A stretch of 64,000 nt of DNA from a virus. This document shows, piece after piece, positions 105-29,262 of this stretch (positions within the stretch are counted from its first letter, which is position 1; every line of letters begins with the position of its first letter). The notes under the pieces were generated by a model. That model was given only the letters and a program-made list of their open reading frames with translations, ran no database searches and was not told where the DNA came from. A program made the position numbers and the translations under genes. Location of the stretch: positions 1-64,000 of IMG/VR virus record IMGVR_UViG_3300007770_001284, one strand, 5' to 3'.

Positions 105-206
105 ATGGGCGATCAGAAGCTGTGGGACGAAAATCGACACTCTACATATGAAGAGCTAGAGCGTAGACTAGAGCACTGGGCAGGACGAATGAGGCCAGTA
201 AGATGA
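105..206 (+). CDS. 33-residue small protein, unknown
   Basis: ATG at 105 opens a 33-codon frame (begins MGDQKLWDENRH) whose TGA overlaps the ATG of the next gene in an ATGA junction, the usual coupling in this window. It is charged, with a predicted helix (EELERRLEHW). The ATG lies only seven bases after the -10 box, so the message would be leaderless or nearly so, and no ribosome binding site is visible. That makes the call uncertain. No family recognised. Confidence 0.35.
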   Translation: MGDQKLWDENRHSTYEELERRLEHWAGRMRPVR

Positions 207-604
207 AAATTACAAAAAGACAATTGAGAAGAATTATTAAGGAAGAGTTAGAGTACGGGGAGTTCGCACGAACACCGGAAGTTCAGGCAATGCTCCAAGC
301 TGCTGGCTTCAATGCCGATGGTAGCTTCGGTATGGATGGCTATCCTGGTCCTGCCGATTGGCGATTATACGCTCCAGAAACTATAGAAGATGCAGAGCGT
401 TGGATCGATGCTGCCATCGCTATGAATGATGCGCTGAGGCAAGCAGAGACAGCGCTGGATCGAGGCACATACCAGTACGCAAGCGATGCATGGCAGAAGA
501 TCGTCTATCCAGTCCAAATTGAATATAGCGATACTGGCGCGGCAGACACCGAAGGTCGAGAAGTCGCCGGTAACTGGCTTGAAAAAGCAGGATTTGAGTG
601 GTAA
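203..604 (+). CDS. tagged putative virion-packaged protein (paralogue of 21792-22205)
   Basis: 133 residues. The first 15 are the tag MKITKRQLRRIIKEE, a basic amphipathic helix with Ile12 and Glu14 that matches the (I/L)-x-E pattern of T4-type prohead protease sites. The rest is paralogous over nearly its full length to the protein at 21792-22205; both share a YPGPADW motif, PET, a helical middle, YPVQI, GAADTEGR and a final W. Two copies 21 kb apart, both tagged, suggest a useful payload domain of about 110 residues. Function unknown. It is followed after one base by another tagged gene. Confidence 0.88.
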   Translation: MKITKRQLRRIIKEELEYGEFARTPEVQAMLQAAGFNADGSFGMDGYPGPADWRLYAPETIEDAERWIDAAIAMNDALRQAETALDRGTYQYASDAWQKIVYPVQIEYSDTGAADTEGREVAGNWLEKAGFEW

Positions 605-605
605 A

Positions 606-863
606 ATGAAAATTAGTAATCGTCGATTGCTACAGATCATCAAGGAAGAGTTAGAGACTCCTCCGTATGTGTTAGAGCGAAGTGGAGTGAGCTGGGATGA
701 ACGCTTCTTTGTTGAGATTGTCGGAGGAAGAACGATCGTATACGGTCCATTCGAGCTAGCAGAGCAGTTCTTGAGCATACAAGACGCAGAGCGAGCGCAG
801 CGCATTATTGATGATATCGACGGCTACTACACGTCTGTTCGTCCCACAAGCTTTTTCCAGTAA
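606..863 (+). CDS. tagged small protein
   Basis: 85 residues from ATG 606, which follows the preceding stop by one base in the recurrent GGTAAAATGA junction. An in-frame upstream start at 486 exists but would overlap the previous gene by about 120 bases and hide the tag. The N-terminus MKISNRRLLQIIKEE is a divergent tag that keeps Ile12 and Glu14. The remainder is a small mixed alpha/beta domain with no family I recognise. It shares the transcription unit of the gene at 203. Confidence 0.85.
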   Translation: MKISNRRLLQIIKEELETPPYVLERSGVSWDERFFVEIVGGRTIVYGPFELAEQFLSIQDAERAQRIIDDIDGYYTSVRPTSFFQ

Positions 864-894
864 AAAAACTCGACAGATCTATTAGAATAACGGT

Positions 895-1623
895 ATGATT
901 GTACCGATATGCATCGGCATGCCAAGATCGGCATCTCGGATGACATGGCAACTGGCTAAACAACTGTCACCGCCAGAACCAAGCTGGTGGCAGGATAGAA
1001 TGAATATTGATGCCCCGAGTGCTCGCGTAGAGAACCCACAGGATTCTCCTTGGCCACACAGGTCTCACAACTATGTTTCTGGTAGCGATCCTGTAATCTA
1101 TACATACCGGAACCCTGTGGAGGCATACCTTTCTTTTCTTTCAAGGGTGAGCCCGGCGGTGGTATGGTATCCTAATCGAACAGCAGTAAATGAGATCCTA
1201 CAACACGTTCGAACACAGAGAAAATTGCAGCTAGACAAAGGAAGGGCAAGAAATGTCTTGTGGCTACGATACGAAGACTATTTCGGTGATGACAGAAAAC
1301 GACTTAATGACATCATGGAATTTATGGGAGTAGTAAGATCGCCCGCTGAACAAGAGAATATTCTAAAATATGTGAGCCTTTCTGCAAATCGAGCAAGATC
1401 AAAAGACATTCCGACCAATATTGATGATGCTGTGGCTTTTCACAAGTGGGAGAATACAGTGACCGGAATCCAGGGTCATCATATCAATGAAGCCACGCAA
1501 GGCCGAGTTGGTGCTTATATAGATGCTTATCCTGATGAAGTATCTCAGATTAGGTCAGCTCGACCCAACGAGCCTCTTGGCGAGTTACGACTTTTTGCCG
1601 AGTCACTTGGATATACGGTGTAG
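895..1623 (+). CDS. sulfotransferase-like protein
   Basis: 242 residues. Near the N-terminus GMPRSASRMTW resembles the loop that binds the 5'-phosphosulfate of PAPS. IYTYRNPVEAYLSFLSR around residues 68-84 fits the 3'-phosphate site (Arg and Ser), and WLRYEDYF is the usual later strand. These are the hallmarks of P-loop sulfotransferases, which move sulfate from PAPS to sugars or other acceptors. It is distant from the other two sulfotransferases in the block (2679, 3515). It is followed after one base by a hydroxylase-like membrane gene. The acceptor is unknown. No clear Shine-Dalgarno sequence precedes ATG 895. Confidence 0.72.
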   Translation: MIVPICIGMPRSASRMTWQLAKQLSPPEPSWWQDRMNIDAPSARVENPQDSPWPHRSHNYVSGSDPVIYTYRNPVEAYLSFLSRVSPAVVWYPNRTAVNEILQHVRTQRKLQLDKGRARNVLWLRYEDYFGDDRKRLNDIMEFMGVVRSPAEQENILKYVSLSANRARSKDIPTNIDDAVAFHKWENTVTGIQGHHINEATQGRVGAYIDAYPDEVSQIRSARPNEPLGELRLFAESLGYTV

Positions 1624-1624
1624 C

Positions 1625-2086
1625 ATGCTTATTTTCATGTCTATTCTGGCTGGTGTCCTATATGCGAATCTAATTGAATATTGCATTCATCGTTATTTGT
1701 TCCACGGTTTTGGTCGATCGGGTTCAAGCGTCTTTGCATTCCACCTAAGAGTGCATCATTCGATAGCTAGAAGTAACGGGTTTCTTGATGACCGTGTGTC
1801 TCACAATGAGCTGATTGGACTACCGATCGTTGTCCTGCTTCATATTCCGTTCTTGTCGATACTTCCTGTGTTCTTCTACACCATCACGACATACGCATTC
1901 CTGTTCATCGTCGTCCATAACTTGATTCATCGTTATCCGCTTTTCGCACAACGATATTTTTGGTGGCACTGGAACCATCATATGCGGAACCAGAATAAGA
2001 GCTGGGGTGTTGTATTACCGATCACTGACGTCATAGTCGGAACGCTAGAAGACAACAGGATCAAGACTAAGAATCGGCGCGGCTAA
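1625..2086 (+). CDS. fatty acid hydroxylase / sterol desaturase superfamily membrane protein
   Basis: 153 residues from ATG 1625, placed directly after the previous stop; an in-frame start at 1523 would run over the upstream gene. Histidine clusters typical of the di-iron membrane hydroxylases are present: HRYLFH, HLRVHH, HNLIHRY and WHWNHH, spaced between hydrophobic segments. Such enzymes hydroxylate or desaturate lipid acyl chains in membranes. At 153 residues it is short even for the bacterial carotene-hydroxylase-like members. Its C-terminal NRRG is encoded by the 23-base repeat also found at 2641. Beside sulfotransferases it may modify a lipid or surface glycan. Confidence 0.75.
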   Translation: MLIFMSILAGVLYANLIEYCIHRYLFHGFGRSGSSVFAFHLRVHHSIARSNGFLDDRVSHNELIGLPIVVLLHIPFLSILPVFFYTITTYAFLFIVVHNLIHRYPLFAQRYFWWHWNHHMRNQNKSWGVVLPITDVIVGTLEDNRIKTKNRRG

Positions 2087-2094
2087 TAACAGAA
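2072..2094 (+). repeat. 23-base junction repeat, copy 1
   Basis: AATCGGCGCGGCTAATAACA plus GAA is identical to 2641-2663. Here it spans the end of a gene and supplies its stop codon; at 2641 it lies just after a stop. Shorter relatives containing GGCTAAtAACAGAA occur at 3481 and 4669. It behaves as a DNA module at gene junctions rather than as coding sequence. Confidence 0.85.
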
Positions 2095-2164
2095 AGAAAG
2101 TGTGTATTTATCGACCGCGAAGTCTAAAATAAGAAAGGTTCACAAATGAAAGGAGCAACCGATA

Positions 2165-2641
2165 ATGTCAATTTTTGAAACGCTGCGGGAAATGAATATG
2201 CCAGGAGACTCTGTTGTCAGTCTGTCTTTGAGCGAGGGCACCGATGTCTTCGTACATAACGAGTCAGAGGTCGAGACAGCGCTAACGGAGACAACTGTGG
2301 TATCAGAGTTTGCAGAGCTCGTCGCGACCAAGGGACTTGAAGTTACCACTGCATACGGAACGAACGTGCTTGACTCTCTCCGTGATGATGGTTTGCTGGA
2401 TGATTACGATCGAGAAGGGTGGTTCTCTGACTATCTTGCGGAGACGATGAACGATAACTTCTACGATCTAGATCTTATCGAGTATTCTACCGAGAAGTAC
2501 GATTACAAGCGCGGGTTCTGTACCTTGACCGCTGATGTCCGAGTCACTCTTGAGAATCTTCTTGATGTGTGTCCGCCTCTTACTGGGTGGGATGTTCAAG
2601 TGAAGACTCCAAACGGGACGCTCACTGTTACCAACGACTAA
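2165..2641 (+). CDS. hypothetical protein, 158 residues
   Basis: ATG 2165 follows AAAGGAG by nine bases. The product is acidic and soluble, without membrane segments or signal peptide. Two halves can be seen: an N-terminal part of short strands and helices, and a C-terminal part with GFCTLTADVRVTLENLL and GWDVQVKTPNGTLTV, suggesting a small beta domain. I do not recognise a family. It sits between two copies of the 23-base junction repeat, which suggests it was inserted as a cassette. Confidence 0.75.
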   Translation: MSIFETLREMNMPGDSVVSLSLSEGTDVFVHNESEVETALTETTVVSEFAELVATKGLEVTTAYGTNVLDSLRDDGLLDDYDREGWFSDYLAETMNDNFYDLDLIEYSTEKYDYKRGFCTLTADVRVTLENLLDVCPPLTGWDVQVKTPNGTLTVTND

Positions 2642-2663
2642 ATCGGCGCGGCTAATAACAGAA
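2641..2663 (+). repeat. 23-base junction repeat, copy 2
   Basis: Exact copy of 2072-2094, starting at the last base of the stop codon of the preceding gene and lying upstream of the sulfotransferase gene at 2679. Confidence 0.85.
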
Positions 2664-2678
2664 GTATTATAAGGTGCC

Positions 2679-3470
2679 ATGCATAAAAGAGAAATAATAC
2701 ACATACACATTCCAAAAACAGGCGGTACTTGGTTGAATGAGACCCTAGCAGCTGTTATTCCAGATTATTTTTCGTTTGGTGAGCGTGATCATGTAGCAGT
2801 TGGTGCGCAATTGGAAGGGATTAAGTCATGGAGACGTACGGCACAACAGGTTGTTGATGATATACCGTGTACGTTGGTTGTGGCGCCTACAGGACCAGCC
2901 AAATATCCGCAACGATATCTTTCGGCTACCAAAATCAGCGTGTGTCGAAATCCTTACGATCTTCTTGTCAGCTATTATTGCCATGACTGGGATTGTGCTG
3001 GTGCTCCAGCTAGTGCCGACCTTGGTGATCATCCTATGGGTTGGGACAATATCAATGCGATTCATGGGATTCGTGATTTTGATGGCTTCATAAAAAGATA
3101 TTGCGATCCGGATTTTAAGTGGCATCATGTGCACCGACAACGACACCTGTTTTACCAGATGTACGACGCATCGGGTAGCTGTGGTATCGATATTATCATG
3201 CGGAATGAACGATTGCACGAAGCAATAAGCACATTTTTAGTATCAATGGATTATTGCACTGTTGATGAGATGAAAGTACATGATAGGCGAGTAAATACAT
3301 CTCCGGGAAAGACCCGAGATTATCGTAGTTATTATACTGATGAATTGATGGATCTTGTGACAGAGAAGTGCGCAAAAGAATTGCGAGATTATGCTTACGA
3401 TTTCGACGGCCCTACCGATGCCGACGCATTTCTTGAGAACAGTCGTGAATTGTATTACGATTTTGCCTGA
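2679..3470 (+). CDS. sulfotransferase-family protein A
   Basis: 263 residues. IIHIHIPKTGGTWLNETL near residue 6 is the PAPS 5'-phosphosulfate loop (PKTGGTW), and SVCRNPYDLLVSYY near residue 90 is the 3'-phosphate site with Arg and Ser. Later blocks (FIKRYCDPDF, GSCGID, DYRSYYTDEL, YDFDGP) are shared with the next gene at 3515, so the two arose by duplication. The fold is that of P-loop sulfotransferases that sulfate carbohydrates. GGTGCC lies just before ATG 2679. Acceptor unknown; phage-surface or host-surface glycans are plausible. Confidence 0.85.
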   Translation: MHKREIIHIHIPKTGGTWLNETLAAVIPDYFSFGERDHVAVGAQLEGIKSWRRTAQQVVDDIPCTLVVAPTGPAKYPQRYLSATKISVCRNPYDLLVSYYCHDWDCAGAPASADLGDHPMGWDNINAIHGIRDFDGFIKRYCDPDFKWHHVHRQRHLFYQMYDASGSCGIDIIMRNERLHEAISTFLVSMDYCTVDEMKVHDRRVNTSPGKTRDYRSYYTDELMDLVTEKCAKELRDYAYDFDGPTDADAFLENSRELYYDFA

Positions 3471-3480
3471 TGTTGATGGT

Positions 3481-3526
3481 GGCTAATAACAGAAATCCCT
3501 AAAGGAAGAGAGCAATGCAGAAGAAG
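3481..3526 (+). repeat. 46-base junction/leader repeat, copy 1
   Basis: Nearly identical (one mismatch) to 4669-4714. It runs from GGCTAATAACAG through CCCTAAAGGAAGAGAGCAATG and into the first codons (MQKK) of the next gene, so it carries a stop codon, a spacer, a ribosome binding site (AAAGGAAGAG) and a start. Confidence 0.88.
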
Positions 3527-4690
3527 TCAACCCGCAAGAAAACCTCTGAAAAGATTATCCACATACACCAATCAAAGACCGGTGGCACTTGGTTGAACAC
3601 GATACTACCGAAGTATCTAAAAAACGATTATATTGCTATGCCAACCGCATACAATATAGCATCGCAGGTCTGGAAGTATGGAGACGCTGGAGCTCGTTTA
3701 AACCTCTCCCGGAAACATCTTAACGATATCTATCACAGCCCTGAATTTCATGATGTAACAAAAGTCAGTATTTGTAGGAATCCATTCGATTATCTTGTAA
3801 GTCGATATCATCAAGATGGCTTCCAGGGCACGTTTCACCCATTAGAAAAATATAGCATCCCCGGGGTACCAGCTGGAATGGATTGTGCTAACGTAGTTCA
3901 TAAAATAGGTTCTTTTGACGAGTATATCAAAAAATACTGCGACCCGGACTTTCCCTTTGTGGACCCGGATACTAGAACGTTTTTCTTTCATACGATGTTT
4001 CAAGTAGACGGATCGTGCGGTGTCGACATAATAATAAGAAATGAGATGCTTAATTCTGCTGTTGGAAAGATTGTGAGTCTACACTCTCGTTTTCGGGGTA
4101 AAGAGGAGGAGGTAAGACAGGAGATTTTACAAGAATCTATCATCAATGCTTCACCCGCGCGCGAGAAGAAAGATTACAGATCATATTACACTGATGAGTT
4201 ACGTGAATTGGTCGAAAAAAAATGTGATGCTGAACTGATGTTATTTGAATATGACTTCGATGGACCGATTAATGATTATGAGTTTATTAATCCAGACGGA
4301 TTATTCTATCATGTCATGACTTTAACAGCGATGAAAAATGTTAACCCTACAATGAAATCAGATATCCAAGAGGGTATCGTGCGCGCAATGGACATGATTT
4401 TCAACGGCCCTGACGGAATTGATCAGGAGGGATTAAAGATGCTAATGGCAGCTCATCACCATATCACACCAAATGTATTTCTTCCATACGATTCGAACAC
4501 TCTTGTATGGAATGTGGGAAATGATTGGAATGACAATCCAATCTGGAAGATGCTGCCCTCTCAAGTGAGAGTAAGCGGGGTTGGCCTTAAACGATGGGGA
4601 GTGACTGACGAAGAGATAGCACAAGCAAAGGCGAGTAACAACGGCGATGTGCTAGCCCTGCTCCGCGCGGCTAAAAACAGAAATCCCTAA
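3515..4690 (+). CDS. sulfotransferase-family protein B with C-terminal extension
   Basis: 391 residues. IIHIHQSKTGGTWLN near residue 15 and SICRNPFDYLVSRY near 87 are the PAPS-binding motifs, and the blocks shared with the protein at 2679 continue to FDGPINDYEF near 260. A further 130 residues have no counterpart there and may form an extra acceptor or partner domain. The last residues (AAKNRNP) come from reading into the junction repeat at 4669, where TAATAA of copy 1 is TAAAAA, so the end of the protein was lengthened by the repeat. Start ATG 3515 lies within the duplicated leader. Confidence 0.85.
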   Translation: MQKKSTRKKTSEKIIHIHQSKTGGTWLNTILPKYLKNDYIAMPTAYNIASQVWKYGDAGARLNLSRKHLNDIYHSPEFHDVTKVSICRNPFDYLVSRYHQDGFQGTFHPLEKYSIPGVPAGMDCANVVHKIGSFDEYIKKYCDPDFPFVDPDTRTFFFHTMFQVDGSCGVDIIIRNEMLNSAVGKIVSLHSRFRGKEEEVRQEILQESIINASPAREKKDYRSYYTDELRELVEKKCDAELMLFEYDFDGPINDYEFINPDGLFYHVMTLTAMKNVNPTMKSDIQEGIVRAMDMIFNGPDGIDQEGLKMLMAAHHHITPNVFLPYDSNTLVWNVGNDWNDNPIWKMLPSQVRVSGVGLKRWGVTDEEIAQAKASNNGDVLALLRAAKNRNP

Positions 4691-4714
4691 AGGAAGAGAG
4701 CAATGCAGAAGAAG
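4669..4714 (+). repeat. 46-base junction/leader repeat, copy 2
   Basis: Copy of 3481-3526 with one T-to-A change that removes an in-frame stop. It ends inside codon 4 of the small gene at 4703 and gives it the same MQKK start. A partial relative (CGCGGCTAAAAACA) marks the end of the gene at 11552-11728. Confidence 0.88.
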
Positions 4715-4918
4715 CCAGTAAAGAGGAAGAAGAGAGTCAAAGAAAGAGACATGCAGTGGGAAGTAAGAGAGGTAGGAGAGAGAGGCTACGGTGTCTTCCT
4801 CATGGACGAGTACTGCGCTACAGACGAGCCTGTGTGCTATGGTGTCAGTTACTCCAAAGACACTGCCGACAATCGATGTGACCGTCTCAACAACCCGCTG
4901 CACAGAGAAGATATATGA
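4703..4918 (+). CDS. small basic protein, unknown
   Basis: 71 residues; the first 20 are very Lys/Arg rich (MQKKPVKRKKRVKERD), followed by a small domain with three Cys. The start and ribosome binding site are those of the 46-base repeat. The stop overlaps the ATG of the next gene (ATGA). No family recognised; the basic N-terminus could bind nucleic acid. Confidence 0.7.
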   Translation: MQKKPVKRKKRVKERDMQWEVREVGERGYGVFLMDEYCATDEPVCYGVSYSKDTADNRCDRLNNPLHREDI

Positions 4919-5682
4919 GTCATTATTTAAAATACGCAAAGAATCGATTCTCCCAGAACGGTGAAGACGGTATCCTAGACCAGCTGTTCAAGGACTTGCA
5001 TATCGAGGCAGGTATCGTTGTTGAGTTCGGCGCCTGGGATGGTGTGTATCTTAGTAACACTTACCTGTTATGGAGGTACAAGGACTTCGACGCGGTACTG
5101 ATAGAAAGCGATCTGTGTAAAGCGACAGAACTAGTCTCCGTGACAAGAGGTTTCGATAACGTGGAGGCTGTATACGCTGCGGTGTCTCCTGTTAAAGACC
5201 ACAAGAATTCGCTCGACAATATGTTGGATCGTTCTGCCTTTGATGTTACGGAAGACTCGCTTGCGTTGGTCTCTAGTGATATCGACGGATCCGATTATGG
5301 CATATTCGAGTCTATGGAACGGCATCTTCCAAAAGTTGCTCTTATCGAGACATCCACCGGACCAGATCCACATTCTGGTAATTTGAGACAACTGACCGAT
5401 CTAGCGGAAGCAAAAGGATATACGCTAGTATGTCATACTGGTAATGCGGTCTACGTAAGGAACGATCTTATGCATCATCTAGACCATATAGACTTCGTAT
5501 ACGAAGATATGTGTTGTACTGAAGACGATGTAACTGCGCTACAAAATATCGGCTCTGAGGGTAAGAGTCGAATACCCACAATATACCGTCCTACCCGTGC
5601 GACGACGACTACGTACTTGAATTCTGTTACTAAAGAGATAGCGGCATGCAAGGCCCTCTCTGAGTCGGTGACAGGTGGCTAA
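4915..5682 (+). CDS. FkbM-like SAM-dependent methyltransferase
   Basis: 255 residues. The N-terminal SQNGEDGILDQLF, followed by VVEFGAWDGVYLSNT and the acidic AVLIESD, fits the opening of FkbM-type methyltransferases: a glycine-rich SAM loop and an acidic residue for the ribose. The central SSDIDGSDYGIFESM and VALIETS parallel the DVEG/E segments of the family. Such enzymes O-methylate sugars or small molecules. It is coupled to the preceding gene by ATGA and closes the sulfotransferase/hydroxylase block, in keeping with surface glycan modification. The C-terminal 50 residues are unassigned. Confidence 0.72.
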   Translation: MSHYLKYAKNRFSQNGEDGILDQLFKDLHIEAGIVVEFGAWDGVYLSNTYLLWRYKDFDAVLIESDLCKATELVSVTRGFDNVEAVYAAVSPVKDHKNSLDNMLDRSAFDVTEDSLALVSSDIDGSDYGIFESMERHLPKVALIETSTGPDPHSGNLRQLTDLAEAKGYTLVCHTGNAVYVRNDLMHHLDHIDFVYEDMCCTEDDVTALQNIGSEGKSRIPTIYRPTRATTTTYLNSVTKEIAACKALSESVTGG

Positions 5683-8700: not shown

Positions 8701-9789
8701 ATGGACGTCAAAACTCTCAAAACATGTATCGCAGCCCTTCCACCCAATATCGCTGCGCTAATGCGCGGTCCCACCGGTGTCGGTAAGTCACACGTAGCCA
8801 AGGATGTCGCAGATGTCCTCGGGCTCCCATTCCTCGATGTCCGCGGAAGCACCATGGACGAGGCTAAGGTCGGCGGAATCCCGGATTTCGAGACCTCAAA
8901 GGAACGTGGGGTGTCCACCTTCTGTCCTCCCTCTTGGTTCAAGCGCGCTTGCGATGAGCCAGTTCTCCTGATGCTCGATGAGCTCAACCGCTCGATGCCG
9001 CAGGTACAGCAGGCCTTCTTTCAGATTGTCCTGGACCGAGAGCTCGGTAACGACGCTGACGGTGTACCTCTGAGGCTCCACCCCGGAACGCGTATCATCG
9101 CGGCAGTTAACTGCGGTAACGAATACGATGTCAACGACATGGATCCCGCCCTCTTGCGGCGCTTCTGGGTCTGTGACCTCGAGCCTACCGTAGCCGACTG
9201 GATTGAGTGGGCAACCGAAGCCGGTCTCGATAAGGTCCTGGTGGAGTTCATCCAGCAGAACCCCGAGCACTGGAGAGTCGACCCCGCCGATGTGGAATCT
9301 GGAACGGTCGTTCCTACTCCCGCCTCCTGGCACCGTCTCAGCGACACTCTGGTCTCGGCCGGATTGGAGCCTGCAAAGATGGCTGGATTCGAGGTTAGCT
9401 CGACTACCTACCCTCTGACCATGGGCTTCGTAGGTACGGAAGCTGCGATCTCCTTCGTTGACTTCCTCAAGAACTACGAACGTAACATTACCGCAGAGGA
9501 TGTCCTGGCCGGTAAGGTCACGGCAGAAGATGTCAAGGAGCTCCCCGCTTCTCAGAAGACTGCCCTCATCGACAAGATCAGCACTCACGCTGCTGAGAAC
9601 AAGTGGAAGAAGGCAGAGGTCAAGAGGATCGCGGCGTTCGCAACCGAACTCGGTGGTGAGTTCCTGATTGCAACCTTCACGGCAGTGCAGAGAGCCAACA
9701 ACATGGCGAACCTGCTCCCCCTCAACAAGTTGATTGGAATGGAAGTAGTCTCCCTGGTCAACGATGCACGGGCAGTGTCGAAGGACTAA
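8701..9789 (+). CDS. MoxR-type AAA+ ATPase
   Basis: 362 residues. GPTGVGKS at 23-30 is Walker A, LMLDE at 90-94 Walker B, AAVN at 134-137 sensor 1 and LLRRF at 151-155 the arginine-finger region. The gap between Walker A and B carries the MoxR-type segment around DEAKVGGIPDFE. MoxR ATPases act as chaperones for VWA-domain partners, often in metal insertion or complex remodelling. The partner is very likely the DUF2201 VWA protein at 10119, behind the next copy of the same promoter. AAGGAC precedes ATG 8701. Codon use is rich in C-ending codons, unlike the genes after 15 kb. Confidence 0.9.
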   Translation: MDVKTLKTCIAALPPNIAALMRGPTGVGKSHVAKDVADVLGLPFLDVRGSTMDEAKVGGIPDFETSKERGVSTFCPPSWFKRACDEPVLLMLDELNRSMPQVQQAFFQIVLDRELGNDADGVPLRLHPGTRIIAAVNCGNEYDVNDMDPALLRRFWVCDLEPTVADWIEWATEAGLDKVLVEFIQQNPEHWRVDPADVESGTVVPTPASWHRLSDTLVSAGLEPAKMAGFEVSSTTYPLTMGFVGTEAAISFVDFLKNYERNITAEDVLAGKVTAEDVKELPASQKTALIDKISTHAAENKWKKAEVKRIAAFATELGGEFLIATFTAVQRANNMANLLPLNKLIGMEVVSLVNDARAVSKD

Positions 9790-10096: not shown

Positions 10097-10118
10097 ATAA
10101 TTGAAGGTAGGAATGGAT

Positions 10119-21018: not shown

Positions 21019-21354
21019 ATGAAAATAACAAAAAGACACCTTAGAAAGATTATTAAAGAAGCCATTAATGAGGCCCGTGAACCGATGACTCCGGATTATG
21101 TTTTTAATGCATTGACGAAGGGAAAAAGCGCTCGCACAGGGACGCCGTTCATCGATACAGCTATGGACGGACTCGCGACCGGTGATGGTCGCATAGTCGC
21201 CAATGCTATTATGGACGCGCTATGGGTTGATGATCCTCCCGTGGGTGCAGATAAAGAATTAGAAGGTCTCGTGCTTGACCTACCTCCCGACGCTGACGAA
21301 TACGATCTAGCTGCCGTCGCAGCAGAGTGGGGAACCCGGCACTTCAGAGGCTAA
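21019..21354 (+). CDS. tagged small protein
   Basis: 111 residues. ATG 21019 gives the tag MKITKRHLRKIIKEA (Ile12, Glu14) and follows GAGGG; a TTG at 20908 is in frame but would bury the tag. The payload is acidic and mostly helical (LDLPPDADEYDLAAVAAEW). First gene of the tagged cluster at 21.0-29.3 kb. No family recognised. Confidence 0.82.
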   Translation: MKITKRHLRKIIKEAINEAREPMTPDYVFNALTKGKSARTGTPFIDTAMDGLATGDGRIVANAIMDALWVDDPPVGADKELEGLVLDLPPDADEYDLAAVAAEWGTRHFRG

Positions 21355-21791: not shown

Positions 21792-22205
21792 ATGAAGATG
21801 TCCAAAAGACAATTAAGAAAAATTATTAGAGAAGTAGCTGCAGAGTCTGAACACGGTGACTTTTCAAAGAATTCCATAATCCGAGCCGCCCGGCCGGAGA
21901 TCAGCGGTTTCAGTCCTGACGGCAGCTCTGGCAGTTCTGGTTATCCTGGCCCTGCCGATTGGAAGTTGTATCCACCAGAAACCATGGACGAAGCTGAAGG
22001 CTGGATCGCCGCTGCTATAGAGATGAACGATGGGTTGATGAAGGCTGAAGAAGCCCTTGAGAAAGGAGAGTTCTACGAGGCGCGAGATGCTTTTGTTAAA
22101 TATGTCTATCCTGTGCAGATAAAATTTGAAGAGCACGGTGCCGCAGATACCGAAGGTAGAAGGGTAGCTGCTTCGTGGCTGGAAGATAAAGGATTTAGAT
22201 GGTAA
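21792..22205 (+). CDS. tagged protein (paralogue of 203-604)
   Basis: 137 residues. Tag MKMSKRQLRKIIREV (Ile12, Glu14). The rest pairs with the protein at 203: GYPGPADW, PPET, the helix with IEMNDG, YPVQIKFEEHGAADTEGR and the final W. About 110 residues of shared domain make this the clearest duplicated payload of the tag family. Confidence 0.9.
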   Translation: MKMSKRQLRKIIREVAAESEHGDFSKNSIIRAARPEISGFSPDGSSGSSGYPGPADWKLYPPETMDEAEGWIAAAIEMNDGLMKAEEALEKGEFYEARDAFVKYVYPVQIKFEEHGAADTEGRRVAASWLEDKGFRW

Positions 22206-22206: not shown

Positions 22207-22665
22207 ATGAAAATTACAAAGAGACAGCTCAAAAGAATTATTAGAGAAGAAAAACGAAAAATGATGGATGAGTGTCCTGGTGATATGGACATGGGTCACT
22301 CCGCTGACGTCGTTGAAATTAGTCCAGAACCCGTTGAGTCTGATTCTGGGTTGATGGCAGAGACAACCTCTGCTGACGGTGAGCTAGTTGTTGAAATGGA
22401 ACTAGCAAGTAGGGCCCTCGAACAAGTTGTTGAGTCAGTCCAGAATGCTGCTCATCTATGCCCGGATTGTACCGGTCCAGTAGCTGCTCAAGCTCAGATA
22501 ATGGAAGCAATGGTCGCACAGGCCGAAGCCCTCCAGGAGATGCTGGAGGCACAAGCTGGTCTTGTTGCAGAATCTGTTGAACTTGACTTTACAGGCGATG
22601 TCGGTGAGCTTCCTGGTGAAGATGCCTTCGCTATAGGTTACACAGCCGGCTCTCAAGGGTTATAA
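22207..22665 (+). CDS. tagged acidic helical protein
   Basis: 152 residues, one base after the previous stop (GGTAAAATGA). Tag MKITKRQLKRIIREE. The payload is acidic and Ala/Met-rich with long helices (EMELASRALEQVVESVQ, QAQIMEAMVAQAEALQEMLEAQAGL) and two Cys (CPDC). It ends ELPGEDAFAIGYTAG. The strong charge contrast between basic tag and acidic body fits a detachable sorting peptide. Confidence 0.82.
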   Translation: MKITKRQLKRIIREEKRKMMDECPGDMDMGHSADVVEISPEPVESDSGLMAETTSADGELVVEMELASRALEQVVESVQNAAHLCPDCTGPVAAQAQIMEAMVAQAEALQEMLEAQAGLVAESVELDFTGDVGELPGEDAFAIGYTAGSQGL

Positions 22666-22670: not shown

Positions 22671-23204
22671 ATGAAGGTTACACGACAGCGCCTCAGACAG
22701 ATCATCAAGGAAGAGCTTGGTTCAATCGTAACGGGTAGGGAAAAAGGGATGCAAGTTTCAGAGCACCCACCTGCAGGGACAACAGGTCTGGAGATTGGAG
22801 ATGTCGTGTATCTTACACCTGAGGCATACGGTGATGCTGACCTACATAAGTTTGGTAGCGATTGGCCACCGATAACAGTCACAGAACTTGGCAACGTCGA
22901 AGATCTCCACGGTACAACTGTACCTGCGAAAACAGACCCACCGTCTGACTGGGATTGGGTCGCTGGTGCAACCGGGCCTGGATTTGTTGGAGAGTATGAA
23001 GCTGCTCCAGGTCTTGGGAACCACGAAGATCTTGTTTTTCCGATGCATGCTATCGATTGGGAATACACAAAACGAGGACCCAAAGAACCGTGGAAGATGC
23101 CTCCGGGACCAGGAATGTACGTCGGCGGATCCGAGCAATGGGATAACGTTACAGAGTCATATTCATTGTTAGACGCGCTAGGGTTAAGGAAGACACCAAA
23201 ATGA
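22671..23204 (+). CDS. tagged protein, 177 residues
   Basis: Tag MKVTRQRLRQIIKEE. The payload (LEIGDVVYLTPEAYGDADL, GSDWPPITVTELGNVEDL, then a Gly/Pro-rich C-terminal half with DWDWVAGATGPGF and KMPPGPGMYVGG) begins like a small beta-barrel (IGDVVYL). It overlaps the large gene at 23201 by four bases. No family recognised. Confidence 0.82.
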   Translation: MKVTRQRLRQIIKEELGSIVTGREKGMQVSEHPPAGTTGLEIGDVVYLTPEAYGDADLHKFGSDWPPITVTELGNVEDLHGTTVPAKTDPPSDWDWVAGATGPGFVGEYEAAPGLGNHEDLVFPMHAIDWEYTKRGPKEPWKMPPGPGMYVGGSEQWDNVTESYSLLDALGLRKTPK

Positions 23205-26032
23205 AAACGCAATTTTACGGTGCGGCGCTTACGCGGCGTCTGCAGGAAGAGCGGGAAACAATATTATTTGAATTAGCTAAGGAGAAGAAAAGCTTACGTC
23301 TTTTGTTCGAAGCTTCAGGTAATCCCCAGTTCGATGCGTTAGCTCTTCAATTAGAGCTGATCCAATTAAATGAGTTCATTCTACCTGAAAGTCGCCTTCT
23401 GGTTTCCTGTGGTCTGGATCTAAAGAGTAGAATTGTTGAGGGGACCGTCAGGGAAATTCAAGAATATTATGAGTTAACTGACGAAGAAGCCGAGGTACTA
23501 CGCGAGGGATTTTGGGATGCTGTCCAGTCTGGAATTGGAAACTTTGCGGGTGGCGTTGATAAAGTTTTAAAGAAAGTTAAACTAAAGAAAGAGCCCGCGG
23601 GGTGGGACCAGGCACAAAAGATATTTCAAAAAGTTGCAGAAAAAGAAGGAAACCAAGTAGTCAAAGACCTTGTGAAAGCAATTGACGAGGAAGCCAGAGA
23701 GCTTGAATCAGGTCTCGGTTCTGGAAAGAACGACCTTACTTTTCCGTACAACAAGCATTCAAATGTGTTCCAGTCTGGTGTTAATACAATCGCTTCCGTT
23801 TACGACACCGTTGTCGACGCGACAGACAAAGATGCAGGTGCTGAGGGGTATCTCCCTGTTGAAGTAGCCAACGAGATAATCGAGCAATTGCGGATTATTG
23901 TCAACAAATATATCGCTGATGTTGAACGAGAAAAAGGTGGGATGTACGTTTCTTTCGGAGGAACAGGCGAGGCTATAGCAGACGAAAAAGCATTGCCAGC
24001 TCGAGAAGCCTACACCCGTTACGAAAGATTACTTCAAGAAGCAGAAGAGGGTGAAGCGCAGTTAGACCCAGAAGAGGAATACGAAAAGATTATGCGGGGT
24101 CAAGATTCCCCCACATTTAAGCGTATGTCTTCTATGAAGGCGCCTGTGATTATTGCTGGACTTGGTGTTTCGCTTGCCGCGCTGGGGTGGATGTCACAAA
24201 TGCCCTGGTTCCAGGATCTTATTTTACGGATTCTAGGTCTAGAGAAACCTACAGGCCCAAAGATTGTAGATGAAATCAAGGCCGCACCTCCCTTTCAGTT
24301 TTCGGGTGACTTAAAAAGCGGAGAAGGACTGACACAGTTTTTCGAAAGAGCCGTTGAAGGTGCTCCCGATCTCGGTCCGAATGCATCATCAGATAATTTT
24401 CTTAAAGTTGCTGAAAAGCTCGGCGGGGGTGATCTTGACAAGGGCCTAAAAAATATAGCATCTTTTACAGAGGGTGCAGGTGATCCTGGTGCTGCATACA
24501 CCGCGCTAAAGGGTTTAGCAGATAGTGGCAAGTCAATGCCCATCGGAGAATTCTTCAAACAGGCAACAGAAATGTCTGGCACAGGTGGTACAATTTTTGC
24601 AGTCCACCCTGGTGAGAAGATAGCACAGGGTGTTGCAAAGAAAGTTGTTAAAGAGGTTGTTAAGGGTGGTGTAAAGTCTGCCGGCGGCGGTGGCGCCGCG
24701 GCGGCAGTAGCCACAATGACAGCTGCAGGACCTATTTTAGCCGGTATTGGTCTTGGTGCTGTTGTCGCCGGTGCATCGTTAGCTGCGATCCGACAGCGGG
24801 CCAAGAAAAAATCTCGAATGGGAGTATTGAACGATTTGTTAGCTACGCTGAATTTGGTCGAACCAAAACCGGTGGACCTACCTCCCCAGGAAGATGTAAC
24901 GGTCCAGGTTGTGCTTACCAACCCCGAAGAGGGTGAGGTAGTCGAAGGTCGCAGATACAACAAGTATAGCCTCGTAAATGCCCTGTATGACCCCATGGAC
25001 GAAGCGACGGTGGTGGCCATGGCTGGTCTTGAGGGTGACCCTGACTTAGAGAAGACAGGCGGAAAATTGAGTTTTATGTTACCAAGCGTTGCTTTAACTG
25101 ATCCCGCGCCGAAAGTAGCGGACATCGACGAAATTCCAGATGTCATTAAAGGAATTAATGCTAAGTTACCTGATTTAGATCTGGACGATCCGACGGTAAA
25201 TGTAAAAGTTGTTGACAACAGAAAAGCAAAAAAGACGAAACCAGTTAAGCCTCCCGTTCCAGTTGTTCCTGACAATATTGCAAAGGGAGAGCATGCAGTC
25301 TGCGTATTCACTGTAAAGGATGGTGCAGAGGTATGGAGAATCTTAAAGAAGGTAACGTATAGGAAATATGCTTCTGATGCGAAGAAATCCGGTGATAAGG
25401 ATGCACCAAAGTTTGCTGATCGCTACAAGCGATATGACGATATTCTAGCCAGCCTAAGAGCCGACGGCGTGTTCGTTGATACTCCCGAGCTAGAGAAAGA
25501 GTTAACGCAAATTTCCAGTGGACCTCAGGGAGATCAGTACAAAGCAACCTACACCAGGACCCGAAAGAACAAGAAGACAGGTGAAACCACTCGCAAAAAG
25601 TCAGTGACAGGTGGGTACACAACAGCTGGAGAAGTTGCCTCAATCGGTGATATCAGGAAGAACATTAAGGGTGCAGGAAACAAGCGCCCCCGCGGGGTAG
25701 ACAAGTACACAGTGATTTACCTTGTAGGAAATGATGTACTAAGTGCTGTTGAAAAAGCTGGAATGAGCAAGGACGAGGCAAAGAATATCATCATGGCAGC
25801 CCTGTCAAAATGGTCAAACGACGAAAAGCGTCCTAAGATGAAAGACCTCGGTGTAACAGACGACGCAGTAGCTGGCGTTTTACGGTCGGCTAGCCTTGCA
25901 GAAACCTATCAAATATCTACCGGCCGACAGAGAGTTATGGTGGTAGGTGTGAAACAATTCTCAAAGATCCTAAGAGAAAACCATGCCGCAAATGAATTGG
26001 GAAGGTGGCAAAAGTTAGCAGGGATCAGATGA
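23201..26032 (+). CDS. large putative virion protein, 943 residues
   Basis: No tag at the N-terminus, which is charged and helical (TRRLQEERETILFELAKEKKSLRLL). About residues 312-345 and 475-530 hold hydrophobic or Ala/Gly-rich segments (VIIAGLGVSLAALGW; AAAAVATMTAAGPILAGIGLGAVVAGASLAAI) that could cross a membrane. The end carries a tag-like FSKILREN and NELGRWQKLAGIR. Flanked on both sides by tagged genes and overlapping each by four bases. Size, helical N-terminus and mid-chain hydrophobic parts would suit an ejected or inner-virion protein, but no family is recognised. Confidence 0.85.
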   Translation: MKTQFYGAALTRRLQEERETILFELAKEKKSLRLLFEASGNPQFDALALQLELIQLNEFILPESRLLVSCGLDLKSRIVEGTVREIQEYYELTDEEAEVLREGFWDAVQSGIGNFAGGVDKVLKKVKLKKEPAGWDQAQKIFQKVAEKEGNQVVKDLVKAIDEEARELESGLGSGKNDLTFPYNKHSNVFQSGVNTIASVYDTVVDATDKDAGAEGYLPVEVANEIIEQLRIIVNKYIADVEREKGGMYVSFGGTGEAIADEKALPAREAYTRYERLLQEAEEGEAQLDPEEEYEKIMRGQDSPTFKRMSSMKAPVIIAGLGVSLAALGWMSQMPWFQDLILRILGLEKPTGPKIVDEIKAAPPFQFSGDLKSGEGLTQFFERAVEGAPDLGPNASSDNFLKVAEKLGGGDLDKGLKNIASFTEGAGDPGAAYTALKGLADSGKSMPIGEFFKQATEMSGTGGTIFAVHPGEKIAQGVAKKVVKEVVKGGVKSAGGGGAAAAVATMTAAGPILAGIGLGAVVAGASLAAIRQRAKKKSRMGVLNDLLATLNLVEPKPVDLPPQEDVTVQVVLTNPEEGEVVEGRRYNKYSLVNALYDPMDEATVVAMAGLEGDPDLEKTGGKLSFMLPSVALTDPAPKVADIDEIPDVIKGINAKLPDLDLDDPTVNVKVVDNRKAKKTKPVKPPVPVVPDNIAKGEHAVCVFTVKDGAEVWRILKKVTYRKYASDAKKSGDKDAPKFADRYKRYDDILASLRADGVFVDTPELEKELTQISSGPQGDQYKATYTRTRKNKKTGETTRKKSVTGGYTTAGEVASIGDIRKNIKGAGNKRPRGVDKYTVIYLVGNDVLSAVEKAGMSKDEAKNIIMAALSKWSNDEKRPKMKDLGVTDDAVAGVLRSASLAETYQISTGRQRVMVVGVKQFSKILRENHAANELGRWQKLAGIR

Positions 26033-26361
26033 AAATCACAAGGCGACAGCTAAGAAGAATAATCAAAGAGCAGATGTCAAACCCACAGGTTGGGTTTAAG
26101 CCGCTGGAGTCTTTCCAGATCCCATATCGCAATTATGGGTATGAGGGTCGTAGGATCATTGATCGAGATCGAGCGTGGCTTGAATTTGTTCCAAAGGGTT
26201 CACCACCAAAGACTCAAGAAGACATGTTTAGAACAGTAACACTTTTAGATAGCGATGATCCAGAAATAGGGCTCGCTATGGCAACTGTGCACGCTCCGAA
26301 GTCTGCCGGTCCGGTGGAAAGCTATGACGTTTACAGCGTATACGCTACCACTACAGGATAA
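26029..26361 (+). CDS. tagged small protein
   Basis: 110 residues from ATG 26029 (ATGA overlap); an upstream in-frame ATG at 26005 hides the tag. Tag MKITRRQLRRIIKEQ. The payload looks like a single alpha/beta domain (RIIDRDRAWLEFVPKG, LAMATVHAPKSAG, SYDVYSVYATT). No family recognised. Confidence 0.82.
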   Translation: MKITRRQLRRIIKEQMSNPQVGFKPLESFQIPYRNYGYEGRRIIDRDRAWLEFVPKGSPPKTQEDMFRTVTLLDSDDPEIGLAMATVHAPKSAGPVESYDVYSVYATTTG

Positions 26362-26364
26362 ATA

Positions 26365-26664
26365 ATGAAAATTACTCGCCGCCAGCTTAGAAGAATTATT
26401 AGGGAAGCGATCCACGATCCTGGTGATGATGCGCTTATCGATACCCTTATATTTGGGTGGGAACAGTCGGGCATCGCCGATCCAGATCTCCCCCCCCAGC
26501 GGAAAGGAGACGCAGCTCTGGCATGGGTTTCTAAGAATGAGCCAGATATTGCACGTCAAATTAACGCACTTTCTACTCATAAGCTAAAAGCCTTGTACAG
26601 CGCGGCATTTGACGAAGATGCAGACCGCGGTCATAAAACAAGCGCGATGGACTGGAATAGATAA
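26365..26664 (+). CDS. tagged small protein
   Basis: 99 residues. Tag MKITRRQLRRIIREA. The first 27 bases are identical to those of the next tagged gene at 26664, showing recent copying of the tag itself. Payload helical (IARQINALSTHKLKALYSAAF). Its stop overlaps the next ATG by one base (TAATG). Confidence 0.82.
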   Translation: MKITRRQLRRIIREAIHDPGDDALIDTLIFGWEQSGIADPDLPPQRKGDAALAWVSKNEPDIARQINALSTHKLKALYSAAFDEDADRGHKTSAMDWNR

Positions 26665-27041
26665 TGAAAATTACTCGCCGCCAGCTTAGACAGATAATTC
26701 GAGAGTCTATCTTGGAAGAGAGGAAAGGCGCATCAGCATCTGATATCGCTCGTTTCAAACCACAGCTTATTGAGTGGACAGAGATTCTAATCGATGAATT
26801 GGCTGAGGCGGTACCTACTATGAAAGAGATGAGTGAGAAGGCTCGGACAAATATGGTGCGAAGCCTTGCTGACAAAGTTTCTGTTGAGCTAACTGGCTTG
26901 ACAAGCGGCATGAGTTATTCTTCGCAGAAGCGAATTGAAAAAAGAGCTGAGGATAAAGCTCATCAGAAATGGGACAGAGACCGAAGAGCTCGAGCGTCAA
27001 ATGTACGTTATTATGGTGAGTGGGAAGGATTTTCAGGGTAA
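26664..27041 (+). CDS. tagged small protein
   Basis: 125 residues. Tag MKITRRQLRQIIRES. Payload helical and charged (LIEWTEILIDELAEAVPTMKEMSEKARTNM split by short loops; basic C-terminus DKAHQKWDRDRRARAS). No family recognised. Followed by the GGTAAAATGA junction. Confidence 0.82.
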   Translation: MKITRRQLRQIIRESILEERKGASASDIARFKPQLIEWTEILIDELAEAVPTMKEMSEKARTNMVRSLADKVSVELTGLTSGMSYSSQKRIEKRAEDKAHQKWDRDRRARASNVRYYGEWEGFSG

Positions 27042-27042
27042 A

Positions 27043-27321
27043 ATGAAGATTACAAAAAATCAGATTAGAAGAATTCTCAAAGAAACCATGTACAATTTGT
27101 GGGCAAATTACAGTCCTGAATCGATCAAGGCAGCCGAGGCGGCCTTAAATATTTTAGGCCATGACCCGAACGTTCGCGGTGCAGAAGTTGAAAATGAAAT
27201 TCACAATTATCTAGAGAATACCCTTGGCATGAGCTCATCAAGCGATGAAATTTTTGCTATCGGTGATGAAGCAATGGAAGCAGCAGAAGTGATGCTTGGT
27301 CTTCCGAAGGATACGCTCTAA
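27043..27321 (+). CDS. tagged small protein
   Basis: 92 residues from ATG 27043; the frame is open from 26935 but that part overlaps the previous gene. Tag MKITKNQIRRILKET, the only copy with Leu at 12, still fitting (I/L)-x-E. Payload acidic and helical (SIKAAEAALNIL, EVENEIHNYLENTLGM). One-base overlap with the next gene. Confidence 0.82.
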   Translation: MKITKNQIRRILKETMYNLWANYSPESIKAAEAALNILGHDPNVRGAEVENEIHNYLENTLGMSSSSDEIFAIGDEAMEAAEVMLGLPKDTL

Positions 27322-27617
27322 TGAAAATTACCACTAGACAGCTTAGAAGTCTCATCCGCGAAGTTCTTATTAAAGAACAAGTTGTCGGCTATACAGCTCC
27401 AGAAGAAAAAGGGGATGATGACGATGGTGGTGGATACTTAGATGTGGGTGATATGGGAGTTGACATCTCTCAATCGTCTGAGGAAGGAACGCAAGCATCA
27501 GGACAAGCAGTGAAGAGTCTAACGCAGCAGCGACAACAAGATCTAGATACTGGTGATGTCGAGGCAGCCGAATCAGATGAACAACAACTGTCAGCAGCTC
27601 AAAAGATGAGAGGATAA
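27321..27617 (+). CDS. tagged small acidic protein
   Basis: 98 residues. Tag MKITTRQLRSLIREV. Payload low-complexity, Asp/Gly and Gln/Ser rich (EKGDDDDGGGYLDVGDMG; LTQQRQQDLDTGDVEAAES), probably disordered. No family recognised. Confidence 0.8.
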   Translation: MKITTRQLRSLIREVLIKEQVVGYTAPEEKGDDDDGGGYLDVGDMGVDISQSSEEGTQASGQAVKSLTQQRQQDLDTGDVEAAESDEQQLSAAQKMRG

Positions 27618-27618
27618 A

Positions 27619-28242
27619 ATGAAAGTTACAAAAAGACAACTATTAAAGATTATACGCGAAGAGGCCGAAGCGTCAGACGAAGCCGGCTCGGTAACTGTCA
27701 CCACTGAAACTGATGAAGTTGATGAAAATGACGAACAAATGAAGCACGATGATGATGGGGATGTCACGGAATCTTTTCGTAGAGAGCTGCGACGTATCGT
27801 AAGAAAAGAATATCGACGAGGAATCCGTGAGGGCCGGACCGGGCACGCTGTGGGGACTGGCTTTGCAGGATGGAGACCGTCGAGTCGTCCCAATTTTGCA
27901 ACATCATATTCCAGCGAAGCAAAATACGCGGATTCGAGATATCAGACTCATCCCAAGTATAAAACAGGTGAGCTGGATACGCTGGCTGAGGTACAGGGGT
28001 GGACTTCCGAATATACGTTGGAGAGTAACGAGAGTGGTGCTTTGAGAACAAAGGCTCGTATCGATCACGGCTCTGTTGTTGTAGAGTTCGGACATTCAAT
28101 GACTTTAAGACTAGACGCTGACGATACTTTTGCGCTATCTAAATTACTACAGGACGCCGCGAGCAGACTCGCCATCGACGAACGAGAATACATCACATTA
28201 CGTGATCCGCAAGCAGGCGGTCTCACAGAGGAAGACTACTAG
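27619..28242 (+). CDS. tagged protein with internal tag-like segment
   Basis: 207 residues. Tag MKVTKRQLLKIIREE, an acidic spacer (TDEVDENDEQMKHDDDGD), then at 54-64 RRELRRIVRKE, which resembles the tag again, followed by the body. The C-terminal 110 residues form a beta-rich domain (SGALRTKARIDHGSVVVEFGHSMTLRLD) ending in a helix (LSKLLQDAASRLAIDE). If the internal segment is also cut, an N-terminal propeptide of about 64 residues would be removed. Confidence 0.83.
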   Translation: MKVTKRQLLKIIREEAEASDEAGSVTVTTETDEVDENDEQMKHDDDGDVTESFRRELRRIVRKEYRRGIREGRTGHAVGTGFAGWRPSSRPNFATSYSSEAKYADSRYQTHPKYKTGELDTLAEVQGWTSEYTLESNESGALRTKARIDHGSVVVEFGHSMTLRLDADDTFALSKLLQDAASRLAIDEREYITLRDPQAGGLTEEDY

Positions 28243-28245
28243 AGC

Positions 28246-28386
28246 ATGGCGAACCCACTTAAAAAAATCCGTGACTGGATGGAATGGAGGGGTCTTACAC
28301 CCAAAGATGCCCTTGGTGCCTTAGTTCCAATGGCTTTCCTGGTTGGAATAACGCTATTGTTTTTATGGGGAGCGTGGCAGGCATGA
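28246..28386 (+). CDS. small single-span membrane protein, 46 residues
   Basis: ATG 28246 to TGA 28384-28386. Basic, amphipathic N-terminus (NPLKKIRDWMEWRGLTPKDA) then one membrane segment (LVPMAFLVGITLLFLWGAW). It overlaps the following lipoprotein-like gene by four bases. Such a pair could be lysis-related or a virion membrane component; not decidable here. Confidence 0.65.
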   Translation: MANPLKKIRDWMEWRGLTPKDALGALVPMAFLVGITLLFLWGAWQA

Positions 28387-28580
28387 ACCATACGGCACCA
28401 TTGGTGGGAATTCTTTTGATGGCTGGTTGCCCAAAGAAAATCGAAGAAGAAAAACCGGTGCATATTTGGCCTACTGACCCGATTAGACTAGAGCTGCCAG
28501 AAGAAGATTATGATCTAGAAGATTTACCAGAAGCTGGAGAAGATACCGGCGCTAAGGAAGAAAGCAATGAAATTCACTAA
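28383..28580 (+). CDS. putative small acidic lipoprotein
   Basis: 65 residues from ATG 28383 (ATGA overlap). The N-terminus MNHTAPLVGILLMAGCPKK has a lipobox (LMAGC, Cys16) but the signal lacks the usual basic start. The mature part is acidic (EEDYDLEDLPEAGEDTG). It overlaps the next tagged gene by 14 bases. An outer-membrane spanin-like role is possible from size alone. Confidence 0.55.
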   Translation: MNHTAPLVGILLMAGCPKKIEEEKPVHIWPTDPIRLELPEEDYDLEDLPEAGEDTGAKEESNEIH

Positions 28581-29262
28581 GCGACAAATTTTAAGAATTA
28601 TACATGAAGAAGTTAAAGGTCTCGAAGATCTTGAAGGCGTTGATAGCATTGAGGGTATCGAATCACCAGTTGACGTCGAAGCAGTTGAAGATGCCTGGGC
28701 TGGTGGCGAGAACATAGTCGAGCCCATGGACCATTCAGAAGCGGGTGGTGGTGAAAAAGAACCAACCACAGGAGTTGAGGTCCAAGAAATAGTCGAACGT
28801 GTTGCTCGTAAACTACGAATCAAGCGGCTTATTAAAGAAATTGATTGGGTTGATCCTATGGCATTCTTACCAGACGCAGAAGCAACAGAACAAGCTTGGG
28901 CTGCAGGAGATAGACTTTCACTCATGATCGATCAGCCGGGTCTAGTTGGCGAAGAAGAACCAGCAGAGGAGAGCGAAGAAGAAATTTCTGAACGGATTCT
29001 TCGAAAGGTACGACTTAAGAAATTAGTGCGGGAAGCAGAAGAAGAAGCTGCTCCAGCTAATCCTGAAGCGAAGACAACAGCAGGGAAAAAAGCTGGTAAA
29101 GCCCTCGATAAAAGTGGCGTTCAACCTTTACTAATCGCGATTGATGAAGCAGGATCAGAGGCAGCAGTGGAAGAAATATTGACTCAACTAATCGGTCAGC
29201 TTTCAGATGATGGGAAAAAGTATCTTAAGAAAGCAATGTCAGATATTATTCGAGCACAATAA
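28567..29262 (+). CDS. tagged protein with two internal tag-like repeats
   Basis: 231 residues. Tag MKFTKRQILRIIHEE. Two similar acidic modules follow, each with an AWAgG(E/D) motif (43-47 and 110-114) and closing in a basic tag-like helix: VARKLRIKRLIKEI (79-92) and ILRKVRLKKLVREA (144-157). A Lys/Ala linker then leads to a helical C-terminal domain (VEEILTQLIGQLSDDGKKYLKKAM). The layout, payload units separated by tag-like basic helices with I/L/V-x-E, looks like a processed polyprotein. Function unknown. Confidence 0.83.
   Translation: MKFTKRQILRIIHEEVKGLEDLEGVDSIEGIESPVDVEAVEDAWAGGENIVEPMDHSEAGGGEKEPTTGVEVQEIVERVARKLRIKRLIKEIDWVDPMAFLPDAEATEQAWAAGDRLSLMIDQPGLVGEEEPAEESEEEISERILRKVRLKKLVREAEEEAAPANPEAKTTAGKKAGKALDKSGVQPLLIAIDEAGSEAAVEEILTQLIGQLSDDGKKYLKKAMSDIIRAQ

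Follow-up and report, generated by a model that had tools for sequence, protein, structure and literature searches.

Why should thirteen mostly unrelated proteins of a single large marine phage begin with the same short peptide? The question is raised by the first 64 kilobases (kb; 64,000 nucleotides, hereafter the window) of the 254,743-base IMG/VR virus record IMGVR_UViG_3300007770_001284 (G000), in which a preliminary description noticed this N-terminal tag and interpreted it as the capsid-targeting signal of payload proteins sorted into the prohead. In phage T4, the internal proteins carry leaders of 10-19 residues that target them to the core and are removed after (L/I)-x-E, and the mature proteins, whose homology is confined to the leader, are injected and act as inhibitors of restriction enzymes (PMC9026906, PMC12373910, PMC9391042, PMC3012670); (L/I)-x-E is the specificity of the T4 protease (PMC9026906). 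We consider it highly likely that the tag belongs to a T4-like capsid-targeting system, in which it would load diverse, Cys-poor cargo into proheads and be trimmed by a protease of the Peptidase_S77 family (S77), the cargo bodies surviving and probably being injected. The payload part of the earlier interpretation gains from the presence of such a protease in the genome, from a helix shared with a gene of the prohead core and from the depletion of the protease motif in the tagged bodies; the part that placed the cut exactly after Glu14 does not hold up equally well.

Written as a loose codon pattern (Met-Lys-hydrophobic-Ser/Thr; hydrophobic at positions 8, 11 and 12; Glu14), the tag matches the window at exactly the 13 starts originally reported and nowhere else, the chance expectation being a mean of 0.01 matches in 100 dinucleotide shuffles of the window. 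Lys2, Leu/Ile8, Ile/Leu12 and Glu14 are present in all 13 tags, as is, consequently, (L/I)12-x-E14, and the tag is strongly basic, with a mean net charge of +4.6 over residues 2-13. Mean pairwise amino-acid identity among the 13 proteins falls from 61.5% over residues 2-15 to 6.8% over residues 16-30 and 6.9% over residues 31-45, so that the bodies are mostly unrelated, as had been stated, with the exception of the paralogues at 203 and 21792, which are 57% identical. Different codons are used in 339 of the 672 same-residue codon pairs and the likeness of the flanking DNA is near background; hence, the likeness of the tags is kept at the protein level and is not due to recent DNA duplication. 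The starts at 606, 21019 and 27043 fall within longer mechanical open reading frames (ORFs); for 606 and 27043, the stop codon of the preceding tagged gene lies immediately before the tag ATG, which favours this ATG as the start. The genes of the tag array are as follows.

203..604, + strand: tagged gene; tag MKITKRQLRRIIKEE at 203-247; body without (L/I)-x-E and without Cys; paralogue of 21792
606..863, + strand: tagged gene, MKISNRRLLQIIKEE; start within the longer mechanical ORF 486-863
21019..21354, + strand: tagged gene, MKITKRHLRKIIKEA; homologues in L015, L288 and L068 retain the tag or a degenerate tag
21792..22205, + strand: tagged gene, MKMSKRQLRKIIREV; paralogue of 203
22207..22665, + strand: tagged gene, MKITKRQLKRIIREE; L068 fuses its body with the 27619 module behind one tag
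22671..23204, + strand: tagged gene, MKVTRQRLRQIIKEE
23201..26032, + strand: protein of 943 amino acids in the tag array, without an N-terminal tag; scaffold-type C-terminus RWQKLAGIR
26029..26361, + strand: tagged gene, MKITRRQLRRIIKEQ; body found again behind other N-terminal regions in L049, L041 and L077
26365..26664, + strand: tagged gene, MKITRRQLRRIIREA
26664..27041, + strand: tagged gene, MKITRRQLRQIIRES; several (L/I)-x-E close to the body start
27043..27321, + strand: tagged gene, MKITKNQIRRILKET; start within the longer mechanical ORF 26935-27321
27321..27617, + strand: tagged gene, MKITTRQLRSLIREV; L130 homologue with the degenerate tag MRVTEYRLRNVIREI
27619..28242, + strand: tagged gene, MKVTKRQLLKIIREE; second tag-like helix RRELRRIVRKE about 50 residues further on
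28567..29262, + strand: tagged gene, MKFTKRQILRIIHEE; acidic body with repeated EDAWAGG-type modules and internal tag-like helices

Outside the window, G000 contains a 14th strong tag at position 229,888 and weaker ones at 191,710, 208,735 and 226,811(-), the last of these on a zeta-toxin-like kinase.

The tag is not peculiar to this record. A strict DNA pattern of it matches at least 119 stretches of the IMG/VR viral collection, and the following counts hold among the matches listed. Removal of the tag from 386 distinct complete proteins leaves bodies that form 254 clusters, 200 of them singletons, and in 367 of the 386 an (L/I)-x-E ends at residue 14. Across 412 proteins, incomplete ones included, conservation extends through residue 15 (Ile12 96%, Glu14 98%), although at residues 2-14 it stems partly from the search pattern itself; past residue 15 it drops, with residual Leu19/20 and Glu22, and a second (L/I)-x-E is common at positions 20-22. 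The tag is present about 17-25 times in each giant record of the G000 lineage and 26 times in a contig assigned to a bacterial metagenome-assembled genome (MAG). None of 13 large random contigs has the tag, and the reversed pattern, used as a control, gave 2 matches in 40 records. Among prokaryote genomes (84,980 species), only four MAGs match; both of those with large matching contigs also encode S77, in one case on the same 305,838-base contig, and the tagged contigs are therefore probably phage DNA. No strict tag was found in cultured phages, and no published paper printing the tag sequence was found.

The modularity proposed at the outset is apparent not only in the 254 body clusters but also in modules re-fused behind single tags: L068 9572(-) joins the modules of 27619 and 22207 in this way. 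Homologues of the window bodies almost always retain the tag, which is at times strongly diverged. Of 148 representative bodies, more than 90% have no Pfam match; the remainder include AAA_33 (zeta-toxin-like or polynucleotide-kinase-like) proteins, HNH nucleases, an RNase_T-type exonuclease, EF-hands and a tRNA-ligase phosphodiesterase-like domain. An AlphaFold2 model of the 203 protein, searched against the PDB, gave no match. Tagged bodies are poor in Cys (0.29% vs 1.27%, p 1e-29) and in membrane-like segments (0.4% vs 7%), and these traits, together with their small size, are compatible with injection.

The preliminary description predicted, and asked to have sought, a gp21-like prohead protease in the rest of the genome. 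G000 encodes one at 145,039 (Peptidase_S77, the T4 gp21 family, E 2.3e-25; phrog_207 head maturation protease, E 1.3e-48). Terminase-like and portal-like ORFs, so called from likeness and gene order, are located upstream of it, and a scaffold-like ORF, with a net charge of -44, and a gp23-like capsid protein downstream. Among 42 tagged records of at least 30 kb, S77 was detected in 22 and the HK97-type protease Peptidase_S78 (S78) in none, a result that speaks against HK97-type head maturation in tagged phages; all 12 tagged records of at least 120 kb have S77. Of 28 random records, 5 had S77 and 4 had S78 above the cut-off, and the contrast of 22:0 with 5:4 gives p 0.004 in a small sample. 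The expected clustering of tags near virion genes is found in relatives: in nine records of 120-213 kb, 34 of 49 tags lie within 20 kb of the protease where about 12 are expected, and in records G107 and G108, with three tags, none is near it. In capsid homologues of this lineage, L-(R/K)-E followed by A, Q, S or V is conserved where T4 gp23 is cleaved (FLTE|A), and the protease thus very probably has the T4 specificity, (L/I)-x-E.

Two observations concern the neighbourhood of the protease. Tagged AAA_33 / zeta-toxin-like kinases directly adjoin it in L135 (2039-2755(-)), L136 and L137, and in the head-assembly cluster of several phages a ribosomal protein S21 homologue comes right after it.

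L139:2428-2670; L146:729-953(-); Mel-JY01 L369:9104-9331: ribosomal protein S21 homologues (PF01165)

A link between tag and head is provided by the small gene just 3' of the protease, which in relatives starts MAK(V/M/L)(S/T)RxxLKxLVKECLxEILxE(G/A/S), that is, with the tag pattern, and in some phages MK(I/V)TKQTLKxLVKECLMEIL. In G000, this gene and the scaffold-like gene that follows are located as below.

G000 146122-146553: core-type gene beside the protease
G000 148008-149774 (= L002:18008-19774): scaffold-like protein with a C-terminal motif described below

When the 245 G000 genes are ranked by a profile built solely from the tagged proteins of other phages, the gene at 146,122 comes 15th and its neighbour at 146,602 (KLTPALLKKLVLQE) 17th. 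A profile-positive gene is found within the next three after the protease in 54 of 54 testable loci, which are kin and so represent fewer than 54 independent events; the background in G000 is 16 of 242 genes, mostly true tags. In the family of 54 core sequences, the N-terminus is the best conserved part, with tandem L-x-E at 17-19 and 21-23 that are invariant or nearly so and align with tag positions 18 and 22, and an NWAxLAF motif is conserved near the C-terminal end. In an AlphaFold2 model of the core protein, residues 6-24 form a single, confidently predicted helix, and the linker after it has low confidence. Genes with the full tag directly adjoin S77 in other lineages (L132-L137, G037:192175, G099:70504). 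Because these protease-adjacent genes occupy the place of T4 gp67, gp68 and gp22, we infer that they encode prohead-core proteins.

A C-terminal motif, W-x-x-L-A-(G/F), usually RWxxLAG(I/V/L), is common to the scaffold-like protein and the 943-residue protein of the window (23201-26032) and occurs also in the large proteins at G000 204326-205693 and 208735-209919; the core protein (146122-146553) carries it as NWATLAF, and the scaffolds of the phages immuto and Mel-JY01 have it as RWQKLAGIIK and RMKKLAGIVK, respectively. This motif may be a second, C-terminal head-assembly signal. In immuto (MW353176.1), the gene at 111631 starts MKKQILSEQFRRMQKLAGIITES, with the scaffold-type KLAGI motif at the N-terminus beside (L/I)-x-E. 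The 943-residue protein is rich in (L/I)-x-E (16 observed vs 10 expected) and is possibly a large core protein.

Entry into the prohead would expose the tagged proteins to the protease, and (L/I)-x-E should accordingly be lost from their bodies. This was examined beyond residue 30 in 248 non-redundant tagged proteins against untagged genes of the same loci. In tagged bodies, the observed/expected ratio is 0.94 for (L/I)-x-E and 1.29-1.54 for (L/I)-x-D, Q, N and K, compared with 1.18 and 0.97-1.23, respectively, in the untagged genes (interaction -0.46, z -6.1, bootstrap over proteins). V-x-E and E-x-(L/I) are not depleted in tagged bodies, and among the other forward distances between L/I and a following E none is conspicuous. 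Since the other polar residues had been chosen for comparison once the first table was known, the test was run again on 83 independent proteins that carry another tag, MK(L/I)(L/I)xENWRK(F/Y)LxE, and gave 0.80 vs 1.26 (z -4.1), with 1.19 vs 1.14 in the untagged controls. The motif is enriched in the scaffolds (1.64) and in the remainder of the core protein (3.07), each set consisting of orthologues with non-independent sites; their T4 counterparts are digested. The T4 capsid-targeting sequence (CTS) pattern (MKTYQEFIAE) matches three T4 genes, and the bodies of T4 IPII, IPIII and gp61.1, found in this way, lack both (L/I)-x-E and Cys. The avoidance of the protease motif by cargo bodies is selective, though not total.

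The mechanism that we propose starts with the basic amphipathic helix of the tag (about residues 5-22), through which freshly synthesised cargo would attach to the scaffold core while the head is being assembled. This helix probably imitates the one at the N-terminus of the conserved protease-adjacent core protein and would bind the acidic scaffold core alongside the latter helix or instead of it. At maturation, the S77 protease would act on the (L/I)-x-E that closes the helix, cutting after Glu14, after Glu20-22 or after both; scaffold and core would be digested, and cargo bodies devoid of (L/I)-x-E would survive, stay in the head with the DNA and then probably be injected with it. We infer the docking partner, the exact cut, the presence of cargo in the virion, its injection and any action on the host.

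Several observations weigh against this scheme or parts of it. Glu15 follows Glu14 in 74% of tags, where the capsid site has Ala, Gln, Ser or Val, and the residue in front of the core protein's first Glu is Val, which makes a cut at Glu14 doubtful; given also the second (L/I)-x-E at 20-22 and the core sites at 18 and 22, the protease may cut at Glu14, at Glu20-22 or in both places. AlphaFold2 models the tag helix of the 203 protein with low confidence. Depletion is incomplete: in the window, 5 of 13 bodies still have (L/I)-x-E past residue 24, and the body of 28567..29262 retains several. The mature capsid protein is not depleted, which we attribute to protection by folding. In the giant records, G000 included, the tags are not near the protease or head genes, so that the expected clustering fails in this genome. 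Among records of at least 100 kb, the S77 excess (14 of 15 tagged vs 4 of 7 random, p 0.077) is not significant, and co-occurrence with S77 was rejected as proof in itself, S77 being frequent in large random contigs. Finally, the T4 CTS pattern has no match in the tagged record G001, Mel-JY01, immuto or P-HM1, and the window tags do not fit it.

Among the alternatives, the one that fares best, although we consider it unlikely, is that the tag is a docking helix left in place and the tagged proteins are permanent internal or minor core proteins, neither cleaved nor injected. The presence of the same helix on a core-position protein would be natural under this explanation, as would the usual Glu at residue 15, a poor fit to the capsid site. 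Yet conservation reaches 98% at Glu14, two residues past Ile12, and (L/I)-x-E peaks again at 20-22; the depletion of the bodies shows exposure to the protease, which an intact tag motif would be unlikely to survive; and enzyme-like bodies would be odd structural parts. Less probable still is a role away from the head, with the basic, helical tag binding a host or phage partner such as nucleic acid, RNA polymerase or the degradosome, in line with the resemblance of some bodies to nucleic-acid enzymes; this would leave unexplained the same helix beside S77 in all 54 loci, the selective loss of (L/I)-x-E, the Cys depletion and the absence of tags from S78 phages. That the 13 genes form one fast-diverging family with the N-terminus simply its best conserved part, as tandem arrays of similar size and the true paralogues at 203 and 21792 might suggest, is very improbable given the fall of identity from 61% to 7% at residue 16, the unrelated domains of the bodies (kinase, HNH, exonuclease, EF-hand), the modules re-fused behind single tags and the codon differences in half of the same-residue pairs.

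The capsid-targeting reading can be set against known systems. As with T4 IPI-IPIII, a short N-terminal peptide holding (L/I)-x-E is common to otherwise unrelated small proteins, the genome encodes an S77 protease, and the bodies are poor in (L/I)-x-E and Cys. Unlike the T4 CTS, the tag is unrelated in sequence, longer (about 15-22 residues) and strongly basic; it occurs in 14 to about 26 copies per genome instead of on three proteins, its helix is found also on the core protein beside the protease, and the same genomes have at least one other tag class. The comparison suggests a system like that of T4 by function and not homologous to it by sequence. In the giant phages phiKZ and SPN3US, head proteins lose N-terminal propeptides after x-x-E, often at several sites (PMC10052503), and the cutting of internal head proteins after a short motif, with gp175 / gp245 as the prohead protease, is a likeness; the motif there is S/A-x-E, the propeptides are mostly long, with two short ones of 20-24 residues (PMC10052503), and no common short tag is reported in the literature examined. 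P1 DarA and Hdf and the polyvalent injected proteins are likewise virion-borne and protect phage DNA or counter the host (PMC12810830, PMC5512222), but are few capsid-bound proteins or large multidomain fusions, with no short tag on dozens of proteins.

A further tag, ENWRK(F/Y)L, is found in at least 120 IMG/VR stretches; S77 is encoded in 10 of 11 of its records of at least 120 kb, and the first tag is present in all nine of these that were tested for it. In cultured Flavobacterium phages of the immuto group, four genes have MENFDLKKFLVENKLT-like starts and the gene that immediately follows the protease has a related one, MENNFDIHKWQAKFLKES, so that the pattern of one tag family on cargo and protease neighbour is repeated. 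We incline, if only just, to the broader view that S77 phages share a general cargo-addressing code, in which several unrelated N-terminal helices with (L/I)-x-E, namely MKITKRQLRRIIKEEL, MK(L/I)(L/I)xENWRK(F/Y)LxE, MENFDLKKFLVENKLT of the immuto group and MKTYQEFIAE of T4, would load many fast-evolving effectors per virion.

G000 has a second N-terminal family, with MNLLREYIRELLTE-like starts on about eight genes at 229322-238443 (L010, L011). These starts are rare in IMG/VR (20 stretches) and were seen in contigs of the same lineage; the bodies are not depleted of (L/I)-x-E (observed/expected 1.09 in 12 genes of the region), for which reason this class is not claimed as cargo.

Two further features of the window were observed. 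Several sulfotransferase-like genes, with one weak Pfam match, lie at 895-4690, between the first and second tagged groups, and a MoxR-like AAA ATPase (AAA_5) adjoins, as a pair, a DUF2201 metallopeptidase/VWA-like protein (8701-9789 and 10101-11537).

If the capsid-targeting reading is true, a sequence rule places hundreds of unrelated, unannotated marine-phage proteins inside the virion head, with the first moments of infection as their likely time of action, and a mechanism known for three T4 proteins extends to arsenals of 14 to about 26 per phage. The loss of the motif from cargo would then be an evolutionary readout of prohead exposure that is usable without an isolate, and the related tag of cultured Flavobacterium phages opens the idea to direct test. 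Should the general addressing code hold as well, a sizeable share of marine-phage ORFan genes would encode injected proteins, and cargo would be recognisable by a tag together with the absence of (L/I)-x-E and Cys.

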